42,574 bases of DNA, taken from contig JAFLCD010000014.1 in the NCBI GenBank assembly GCA_017302715.1, forward strand, positions 1-42,574. The letters run 5' to 3'. Position 1 is the first letter of the stretch. Every line of letters begins with the position of its first letter. Below, one piece after another: positions 38,442-42,574 of this stretch. Source of the stretch: Deltaproteobacteria bacterium (GTDB lineage: Bacteria; Bdellovibrionota; UBA2394). Position numbers and translations under genes: made by a program. The notes under the pieces are model-generated. The model did not search any database. It saw nothing but the letters and a program-made list of their open reading frames with translations, and was not told the origin of the DNA.

Positions 38442-38822
38442 CTATTTATAGGGCTTAGAATATTTTTTTAACCAAGCCGCTGTTGCTAAAAGTTCGCAGC
38501 GATTTTTAATTATTTCGCCGATGAGAAATCTTTCAGCTTCTTCTGTTTCAACCTGTAAATGAAAACCATTTGCTAAAAGAAAAACTTTTGTTGCCGAAAA
38601 AGAAATTCTTTTATTTCCATCTAAAAAGACGTGATTTAAAGCGAGAGATTCCATTAAAGCGGCTGCTTGCTCGAATAGATTTTCGTAATAGCCGGATTGG
38701 GGGCGATGCAGAGCACTCTCTAATAAGCCACGATCTCTAATTCCCGCTTGCCCGCCGAATTCTTTGATCAACAGCTCATGAATTTCTAGGACTTCATCAG
38801 AAGTGAGATAAACAATATTCAT
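38442..38822 (-). CDS. Fic/Doc-family toxin of a toxin-antitoxin pair
   Basis: A 126-residue protein with the Doc-type opening LTSDEVLEIHELLIKEFGG, the region IRDRGLLESALHRPQ and the active-site loop HVFLDGNKR at residues 64-72, matching HxFx(D/E)xNKR. Doc proteins phosphorylate elongation factor Tu and stop translation, while Fic proteins add AMP; the loop and small size favour Doc. Its ATG overlaps the antitoxin stop (ATGA), so translation is coupled. No inhibitory helix is seen in the protein itself, consistent with control by the separate antitoxin. Such modules move between genomes, but its base composition does not stand out from its neighbours here. Confidence 0.9.
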   Translation of the reverse strand: MNIVYLTSDEVLEIHELLIKEFGGQAGIRDRGLLESALHRPQSGYYENLFEQAAALMESLALNHVFLDGNKRISFSATKVFLLANGFHLQVETEEAERFLIGEIIKNRCELLATAAWLKKYSKPYK

Positions 38823-39037
38823 TTCGCGAGACGTTCAAGCAATTCTCGATTTTCACGAATGACTTGTTCTGCGTAACGCATAACTTCAGGTCGAACTCTA
38901 CGACTTTTAAGAAATTGTTTACCCATTTCAGAATAAACGCTCGAGAGAGTTTGGCCGGTCTCTTTAGCATAGGCTTCCAATTCCTTTTTGATTGCAGCGT
39001 CTATTTGACCACTAAATTTTACTAATTTCGTTGCCAT
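38819..39037 (-). CDS. Ribbon-helix-helix antitoxin
   Basis: A 72-residue protein starting ATKLVKFSGQIDAAIKKELE. A short strand, a first helix KKELEAYAKETG and a second helix SSVYSEMGKQFLKS fit a ribbon-helix-helix DNA-binding fold. The rest (about 45-72), RYAEQVIRENRELLERLAK, is a helix that would embrace the toxin. A frame eight codons longer (from 39061) is open. However, the -10 box TATAAT lies inside that extra stretch and transcription is predicted to begin at the ATG at 39037 itself. A leaderless start there is therefore preferred. It should repress its own operon through the 18-bp palindrome upstream. Confidence 0.85.
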   Translation of the reverse strand: MATKLVKFSGQIDAAIKKELEAYAKETGQTLSSVYSEMGKQFLKSRRVRPEVMRYAEQVIRENRELLERLAK

Positions 39038-39043
39038 GTCCCC

Positions 39044-39071
39044 ATTATACAGAAATTTCATGAAATTTCAA
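39044..39071 (-). promoter_or_regulatory. Promoter of the toxin-antitoxin operon
   Basis: On the minus strand TTGAAA (39071-39066) and TATAAT (39049-39044) are separated by 16 bases, matching consensus at five and six positions. The start point seven bases on falls at about 39037, the A of the antitoxin ATG. Confidence 0.65.
39052..39069. promoter_or_regulatory. Perfect 18-bp palindromic operator
   Basis: GAAATTTCATGAAATTTC is its own reverse complement and is itself two copies of the palindrome GAAATTTC separated by AT. It fills the spacer and overlaps the -35 box of the toxin-antitoxin promoter, the usual site for repression by the antitoxin or its complex with toxin. Confidence 0.7.
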
Positions 39072-40728: not shown

Positions 40729-40769
40729 GGCGTCAGCGGATTTTAAAGCGAATTTTAAGGCATGACGCC
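40729..40769. repeat. Inverted repeat in the flagellin upstream region
   Basis: GGCGTCA (40729-40735) is mirrored by TGACGCC (40763-40769), 63 bases before the flagellin start. Between them are two similar AT-rich steps (TTTTAAAGCGAA and TTTTAAGGC). It could be an operator for flagellin control. The rest of the 222-base gap (40610-40831) shows no gene. Confidence 0.35.
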
Positions 40770-40820
40770 GACATGCAAATGAATGTTGCGCATTTATAAA
40801 AACTTAGACGCACCGCTTTC

Positions 40821-40831: not shown

Positions 40832-42574
40832 ATGTTGAGAATTAATTCTGACCATCTCTCGCTCTTGGCACAGCGCCAACTTTCTCAGTCGCTAAAAGCG
40901 ATTGAAAAAGCTTTGGCTCGTTTAAGTACGGGTGAACGAATCCATTCGGCAAAAGACGATGCTGCTGGTCTGGCGATTCGAACAAAACTGGATACTCAAA
41001 TCAAGACTCAAGCTCGGGCGGCTTTGAATGTCACTCATGCAAATTCTCTGCTTCAAGTCGCCGATGGTGTTCTCGAATCGCAAACGCAAATAGTGCAGCG
41101 TATGAGAGAGCTAGCCGTTCAAGCTTCAAACGGAATTATTTCATCAAGTATGAGGACGACTATAAATTCTGAATTGAACCAACTTTATTCGGAGTTCGAG
41201 CGAGTCATGGCGACTTCAAATTTTAATGGCATACGTCTTTTTGATGGCAACCTTCTGGATCGCAGAATTCAAGTCAGTCGAGATGCTATTGATAATTTTA
41301 ATTTCAACCTGGGATCTGTAGATTCTGCGTCGATTTTTACCAAAATTGGCGCATCAGGAAATTATTCAACTCGCGCCACATTAACGCCCGGATTGGGAGC
41401 TGCTGGTCCCTCTTCTTCGACGGCAGTCGGCGATCTCGATGGCGATGGCTATGCCGATATGGTTGCGGTGGATACTCAAACAACCACTCTTTCAGTATTT
41501 CTACATTCTTCGGCAGATACTTTTGGTTCTCGCTCCGTGATCAATGTAGGCTCTCTACCGAGAGACGTAAAACTCGCCGATTTTGATGGCGACGGAAATC
41601 TCGATGTTATCAATAGCGATTCATCTTCAACAACCGTCTCTCTTTCGTTGGGTAACGGCGATGGAACTTTTCAATCGAGAACAACCGTATCTACCGGCAC
41701 CACTCCTTCGAAAATTCGCGTCGGAGATTTTGATAAGGATGGCAATCAAGATTTTGCAGTTACAGAAAATGGTTCAACGACCATCGGCATTTTCTTAGGA
41801 AATGGAGATGGGTCATTTCAAACGCGGACGTCGGTGGATTTAACAGTCACTCCCGCTTATATGGCACTCGCTGATATTGATAATGATGGTCAACTTGATA
41901 TTGTCGCCGGAGATTCTGCCGGAACAATTTCTAAATTTTTAGGTAATGGCGATGGAACTTTTCAATCTCGCGCGACGATTGCCACAGGCGCATCCGTATA
42001 TGGCTTGGAACTTGGAGATTTAAATAATGATGGGGTCTTAGATCTCGTTCAGTCGGCATGGGTCGTTGGCGTAGGAGCTAAAATTTATCTGGGAACAGGT
42101 GGCGGCAACTTTAGTTCAGCGTCTTCGACTGTCGGGAGTTCTTGGAATGGAACGATCGGAATTGCCGACGTCGACAATGACGATATTCTCGATCTCGTAG
42201 GAGCTTCAACTTTTACCGGTCGTGCACAGGTTCTCAAAGGTCGAGGGGATGGAACTTTTTCGTTTCTCTCTCAAACGACCGGCACAACTTTTTATGGTAA
42301 CCTTACTCTGGCCGATCTCAACGGGGATGAGGCTTTTGATATCATCTCTAGAGATGCGACAAATTCCACGACGCTGTCGTACTATCTCAATGACATTGGT
42401 AGTTCCTCTGGTGTTTCAGATATTTCAGTGACGACTCAATCAAAAGCGCAGAGGCTTTTAGGAATTTTAAGTAATGCGCTCGATAATATTTCAGAGCAGC
42501 GCTCGCTTATTGGCGGACAATTAAGTCGCTTAGAATTTTCTGAATCTACTCTTTTGACTCAACGCGAGTCTCTC
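40832..42574 (+). CDS. Flagellin with an inserted seven-repeat FG-GAP/VCBS propeller (3' end outside the window)
   Basis: 581 residues are visible. Residues 1 to about 150 are the flagellin N-terminal D0/D1 region: INSDHLSLLAQRQLSQSL, RLSTGERIHSAKDDAAGLAI, LLQVADGVLESQTQIVQRM, RELAVQAS and NFNGIRLFDG. From about 177 to 525 come seven repeats. Their metal loops begin at Asp201, 250, 299, 348, 396, 446 and 495 (DLDGDGYAD, DFDGDGNLD, DFDKDGNQD, DIDNDGQLD, DLNNDGVLD, DVDNDDILD, DLNGDEAFD), a period of 48-50. GNGDGTFQSR-type hairpins separate them. This is the FG-GAP/VCBS pattern of seven-bladed integrin-like propellers, which bind calcium. From about 532 the flagellin C-terminal region starts (AQRLLGILSNALDNISEQRS, IGGQLSRLEFSESTLLTQRE) and leaves the window. 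The frame is open throughout. A filament protein with a surface-exposed propeller is inferred. Confidence 0.93.
   Translation, partial: MLRINSDHLSLLAQRQLSQSLKAIEKALARLSTGERIHSAKDDAAGLAIRTKLDTQIKTQARAALNVTHANSLLQVADGVLESQTQIVQRMRELAVQASNGIISSSMRTTINSELNQLYSEFERVMATSNFNGIRLFDGNLLDRRIQVSRDAIDNFNFNLGSVDSASIFTKIGASGNYSTRATLTPGLGAAGPSSSTAVGDLDGDGYADMVAVDTQTTTLSVFLHSSADTFGSRSVINVGSLPRDVKLADFDGDGNLDVINSDSSSTTVSLSLGNGDGTFQSRTTVSTGTTPSKIRVGDFDKDGNQDFAVTENGSTTIGIFLGNGDGSFQTRTSVDLTVTPAYMALADIDNDGQLDIVAGDSAGTISKFLGNGDGTFQSRATIATGASVYGLELGDLNNDGVLDLVQSAWVVGVGAKIYLGTGGGNFSSASSTVGSSWNGTIGIADVDNDDILDLVGASTFTGRAQVLKGRGDGTFSFLSQTTGTTFYGNLTLADLNGDEAFDIISRDATNSTTLSYYLNDIGSSSGVSDISVTTQSKAQRLLGILSNALDNISEQRSLIGGQLSRLEFSESTLLTQRESL

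Follow-up and report, generated by a model that had tools for sequence, protein, structure and literature searches.

The open reading frame at positions 40832–42574 (+) of the stretch of DNA analysed here (the window, 42,574 nucleotides) almost certainly encodes a flagellin that has a closed seven-bladed FG-GAP β-propeller in place of the usual outer D2/D3 domain. It belongs to a large family that occurs in two uncultured groups of Bdellovibrio-like bacteria; a single genome may have as many as about 19 such proteins, with nearly constant shafts and very different heads. No description of a flagellin carrying an FG-GAP/VCBS propeller was found in the open-licence literature, in line with the initial annotation, to which no complete propeller insert was known. 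As far as the literature was searched the family is previously unreported, flagellins with inserted domains being already known.

The window corresponds to contig C6 in full; the genome has 19 contigs totalling 2.39 Mb, and this contig ends exactly at 42574. The gene has an ATG start with a good ribosome-binding sequence upstream, and is open up to the window end, so that 581 codons are visible before the contig end cuts it. Residues 1–140 (40832–41251; this and all following features of the gene are on the plus strand) form the N-terminal flagellin D0/D1 helices, which are predicted as helices by AlphaFold2 and matched by Pfam Flagellin_N over residues 4–140 (5e-33). Pfam FG-GAP_3 matches the protein in seven stretches (4.5e-47). 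Ahead of the first complete blade there is an N-terminal half-blade, residues 178–184 (41363–41383), which is a strand in the model and whose equivalent in paralogues is detected as an extra partial blade. Blade 1 spans residues 195–241 (41414–41554), with the calcium-type loop DLDGDGYAD, and is followed by blade 2, residues 245–291 (41564–41704; DFDGDGNLD), blade 3, residues 293–338 (41708–41845; DFDKDGNQD), blade 4, residues 343–387 (41858–41992; DIDNDGQLD), blade 5, residues 390–436 (41999–42139; DLNNDGVLD), and blade 6, residues 441–486 (42152–42289; DVDNDDILD). Blade 7 is represented by strands A–C at residues ~489–526 (42296–42409; DLNGDEAFD), and does not have its own GNGDGTF/strand D. 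The chain then enters the C-terminal D1 helix, residues 536–581 (42437–42574), identified from the model (helix at 536–580) and from alignment with six intact paralogues. The DxDxD-type loops lie at residues 201, 250, 299, 348, 396, 446 and 495, a spacing of 48–50 residues, and five or more of them never arose in 20,000 shuffles of the middle region. Pfam matches above threshold are limited to flagellin and FG-GAP families; no enzyme domain was detected in the protein, and the metallopeptidase that marks flagellinolysin is not among the matches.

Pfam Flagellin_C gives no score on the window copy, because contig C6 stops at 42574. The initial annotation described D0/D1, seven repeats and the C-terminal domain in one frame; the N-terminal D0/D1, the seven blades and the C-terminal D1 helix are all present, but the C-terminal D0 helix lies beyond the contig end, with about 50 residues missing by comparison with the six intact paralogues. 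These paralogues are further flagellins of the propeller build in the same genome (seven copies in total), all scattered single genes. They are intact to the last D0 residue, with Flagellin_C matches of 6e-11 to 2e-16 and the usual terminal QAN...LL helix, and neither a stop nor a frameshift interrupts the stretch corresponding to that beyond the window end. The missing 3′ end was not recovered elsewhere in the genome, where each of the 11 Flagellin_C matches belongs to some other gene with an N-terminal half of its own. Elsewhere in the window, at 38442–39061 (−), there is a gene of the Fic/Doc family (5.9e-16), overlapped by 4 bases by a small upstream gene, and the two probably form a Doc-type toxin–antitoxin pair.

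The number of blades is nearly invariant. They were counted with a purpose-built blade profile in 119 proteins from 22 genomes in which both flagellin ends were recognised. Exactly seven were found in 113 of these, eight in three and six in three. In the proteins with eight hits the extra hit is partial and lies just before blade 1, which fits seven blades plus the N-terminal half-blade, while those with six hits have one blade-sized gap, which fits seven with one blade missed. Even in a 1596-residue flagellin (G025, L176:850-5640, −), where an insert of ~980 residues separates three blades from four, the total is still seven. Open arrays of repeats are not expected to hold their copy number, and a closed ring must; the fixed number therefore points to a closed ring. 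The insert in this long protein contains tandem repeats of ~90–100 residues between blades 3 and 4, and an 889-residue propeller flagellin of genome G033 (L187:427-3096) has a further stretch of more than 200 residues separating D1 from the propeller. A ~3,900-residue open frame in genome G340 (L252) has many FG-GAP blades, making up several propellers, without recognised flagellin ends. Outside the window's family, FG-GAP proteins of Bdellovibrionota (L112–L119, L129) have 13–14 blade hits, and are probably two seven-bladed propellers in tandem.

Structure prediction leads to the same conclusion. The AlphaFold2 model of the window protein has a mean pLDDT of 82.9, with most of the propeller at 84–96, and that of a complete relative (L028) has a mean of 83.9. 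In the PDB, Foldseek matches the model to flagellar filaments and to the seven-bladed propellers of the LGI1 EPTP domain (TM 0.81), BBS1 (0.73) and PVL lectin (0.57), whereas the solved chains nearest to the propeller by sequence are only distantly related (7.5e-5 and 0.005). Blade counts, model and structural matches agree on a predicted fold that is a closed, Velcro-sealed seven-bladed propeller, which bears out what the initial annotation had proposed from the repeats. The calcium-type loop is kept in 783 of 812 blades, in the strict DxDxDGxxD form in 735, and since the ligand residues are present, calcium is predicted to be held in the loops.

The model also suggests how the head is mounted. 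The strand at residues 178–184 resembles strand D of the other blades and precedes blade 1, and blade 7 has no strand D of its own; this strand is predicted to supply the outer strand D of blade 7, a Velcro closure of the sort found in many propellers. If so, the chain comes in where strand D begins and goes out where strand C finishes, both points being on the calcium-loop face, and we infer that both D1 linkers would leave from this face, with the opposite face pointing away from the filament. In 816 pooled blades the A–B loop (D at 99%, 98% and 99%) and the C–D loop (GNGDGTF) are conserved, and the B–C and D–A loops vary in both sequence and length, with high entropy. The face attached to D1 would thus be conserved and the opposite face variable. 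This is consistent with a binding face but is not proof of one, because the same pattern is typical of any FG-GAP propeller, and no conserved ligand motif was found in the propellers.

The search for homologues combining the two flagellin ends with a propeller, proposed in the initial annotation, returned at least 119 proteins in two lineages. One is the window's own family, which among the genomes examined is the whole of its class and includes Bacteriovoracaceae bacterium UBA2394 and Deltaproteobacteria bacterium CG11 45_16. All five of its species have propeller flagellins, and they are the only ones with the full architecture among 291 genomes drawn from the window's phylum, where up to four candidates per genome were scored. 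The propeller flagellin of CG11 45_16 (L029:4925-6862) is interrupted in that assembly by a frameshift or a stop. The second lineage, reached via 'Bdellovibrionales bacterium HKST-UBA19', has propeller flagellins in 19 of 46 species, with 1–19 matches each, the maximum of 19 being in G340. It is probably a different GTDB phylum from the window's, because its phylum-level group consists of the same 46 genomes and has none in common with the 291-genome sample. At E 1e-65 no propeller flagellins were found in samples of 398 Pseudomonadota and 392 Planctomycetota genomes, for which three candidates were scored per genome and there was no built-in positive control. A scan of a genome collection found the propeller only in the same two lineages among the best 80 loci listed.

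A contrast between the ends and the middle of these proteins is seen in G340. Four adjacent genes of this genome are 88–95% identical in D0/D1, whereas their propellers are 36–38% identical, which is the background level for unrelated copies (median 36%). The four genes form an operon-like run (L244:263-7700), with Shine-Dalgarno sequences inside the 3′ end of the preceding gene. In the first three of them the stop codon precedes the next ATG by one base, and the genes are therefore probably co-translated. Recent gene conversion is not needed to account for the similarity of the G340 shafts, which are mostly 73–94% identical in DNA and mostly 80–100% identical in protein. A nearly unchanged protein encoded by diverged DNA implies strong constraint on the shaft, that is, selection against change.

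The genomic context bears on how much of the filament the propeller flagellins could make up. The window's genome also has two conventional flagellins in flagellar loci: one adjoins fliD, and the other follows flgK and a flgL-like gene. The standard filament genes are thus separate from the propeller flagellins. The initial annotation expected a dense array of propellers on the filament. With plain flagellins in the flgKL/fliW and fliD loci, and the propeller genes scattered singly outside them, it is more likely that the propeller flagellins are minor or mosaic subunits. Nothing in their codon usage points to high expression, and no clean match to classical sigma-28 promoters was found. A promoter-like block of 58 nucleotides (GCCGA...GACGCACCGC) at 40761–40818 (+), beginning at −71 from the start codon of the window gene, is common to the upstream regions of four other propeller-flagellin genes of the genome. 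In a leave-one-out matrix scan, five of the seven propeller genes fell in the top 0.3–1% of random 160-mers, and none of four plain flagellin genes reached that level (best 3.5%); the block was picked from the same sequences on which it was scored, and is best regarded as a lead. Directly upstream of the C12b propeller flagellin there is a Maf-type flagellin glycosyltransferase gene (MptE-like 8e-31, Maf N 5e-7) together with a PseB-like dehydratase gene (L019:209-4439). A plain flagellin in L023 is likewise preceded by MptE-like genes, and flagellin glycosylation is likely.

We hypothesise that a propeller flagellin would be exported and polymerise with plain flagellins into a mosaic filament, that its calcium-loaded propellers would act as rigid heads presenting an outward recognition face (for a surface, a glycan or a prey cell), and that the many paralogues would equip each cell with an assortment of heads mounted on a shaft that hardly varies. 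The proteins are likely to assemble into filaments, and recognition is the most likely role of the heads, with about even chances; adhesion or attachment to prey would be a reasonable function for them. The complete proposal is a display system with constant shafts and variable heads, in which co-expressed flagellins make mosaic flagella bearing divergent calcium propellers, and whole propellers also move to pilin-like proteins. We put this forward tentatively, as one possible account. The flagella of Bdellovibrio are membrane-sheathed (PMC2791853), and if such a sheath is present here, the heads might face the sheath and not the outside.

Three other explanations have been considered. The calcium loops and the rigid closed ring would suit a structural role, in which neighbouring heads pack on the filament, possibly in a calcium-dependent manner, and stiffen it or alter its waveform for viscous habitats, with no foreign ligand. 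There are parallels for this: according to two reports (PMC8931119, PMC10256154), other flagellins have outer domains that form dimers or networks by which motility in viscous media is tuned, and multiple flagellins are common, shaping a tapered filament in Bdellovibrio (PMC2791853). However, packing should keep complementary surfaces, and here heads encoded side by side are only 36–38% identical and the face away from the calcium loops is the most variable, which makes the structural role less likely than recognition. Strong divergence of the heads beside conserved shafts, in many copies per genome, would be expected if the heads were diversified only to escape attackers of the flagellum (phages, predators or immune-like recognition) and bound no ligand, the exposed outer domains of flagellins being known targets. 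Yet in systems of the antigenic type a single variant is usually expressed at any one time, whereas these genes are in tandem and probably coupled, as in G340, or have a common upstream block, and the seven-bladed ring and its calcium loops are preserved with a strictness far beyond what a mere decoy needs. Evasion on its own is rather unlikely, although, like the structural role, it is a serious rival to recognition.

It has also been considered that the proteins pass through the flagellar apparatus without entering the filament, as secreted adhesins, or that they lie inside a membrane sheath and touch it. The scattered gene positions would fit this, as would the occurrence of the same head on a prepilin-like protein, and in Bdellovibrio the flagellum is sheathed and flagellins can be released unpolymerised (PMC2791853). 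In every intact copy, however, both D0/D1 halves are conserved up to the last residues, which would be needless in a merely secreted protein, and we give this explanation little credence.

In trees of D0/D1 the two lineages' propeller flagellins fall into distinct clades, and a topology that unites them is rejected by an AU test (p = 0.006), so that a single common origin of all propeller flagellins is not supported. The propeller tree, by comparison, is star-like with the two lineages mixed. Two insertions at the same site and exchange of heads between lineages would both fit these trees. The heads do appear to move, in that the same type of propeller is carried by flagellins and by a prepilin-like protein of 1070 residues in the window's genome (L017:2548-5760, G000 C12:136547-139759), whose seven-bladed propeller is 52% identical to that of the C9 flagellin and its clear sister. 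The pilin nature of this protein rests on its N-terminus and on a neighbour with sub-threshold PilW and N_methyl matches. No full-length relative of it was found in the other four members of the class. A widely conserved pilin-like FG-GAP protein was considered as the donor and rejected, the FG-GAP proteins of ~1,100 residues elsewhere in the phylum being not pilin-like and having 13–14 blades. A viral origin was likewise rejected: a scan of viral contigs gave only matches to the flagellin N-terminus, and the structural matches among viruses are propellers of a generic kind.

Should the heads bind something, flagella in this uncultured, predator-related group would serve for recognition in addition to being part of the motor, and if the display system is real, the flagellum would be a multivalent recognition organelle with a genome-encoded repertoire of heads. 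A propeller flagellin would be a natural scaffold for dense display of propellers on a filament, and what drives the spread of flagellin paralogues in the lineage becomes a testable question.

The fold of the head is familiar from other proteins. Integrin alpha has a seven-bladed propeller of the FG-GAP type, and the propellers of integrin alpha, PVL lectin, LGI1 EPTP and BBS1 resemble the predicted ring in having seven blades and DxDxDGxxD-type loops of the FG-GAP kind. Those propellers sit on receptors, lectins and trafficking complexes, whereas the ring described here is inserted in a polymerising flagellin. Any likeness to an integrin-like adhesin would be in the way it works. The sialidase fold is itself a propeller. 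In a 2017 survey, 61 insert domains are reported in flagellins, and the ten most frequent include vWFA and sialidase, not FG-GAP (PMC5595980). The flagellinolysin described there is, like the propeller flagellins, a foreign folded domain in the hypervariable region between conserved D0/D1 segments, in many species; it is a zinc metallopeptidase, reported in 86 sequences from 74 species, hence usually one per genome, scattered over distant phyla. The propeller flagellins differ in having a calcium-loop propeller with no match to an enzyme family, in occurring in two lineages as far as sampled, and in reaching ~19 copies per genome. The filaments of the large-outer-domain flagellins of E. coli H7 (7sn4), Azotobacter (9n59) and Geovibrio (9au6), which are the top structural matches of the model, have the same D0/D1 core and the same insertion point, but align poorly over the whole chain (TM ~0.3 in Foldseek), the propeller aligning instead to propellers that are not from flagellins. 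Finally, the related Bdellovibrio bacteriovorus likewise has several scattered flagellin genes, which there build one filament (PMC2791853), whereas within the 291-genome sample of the phylum the propeller architecture occurs only in the window's own family.
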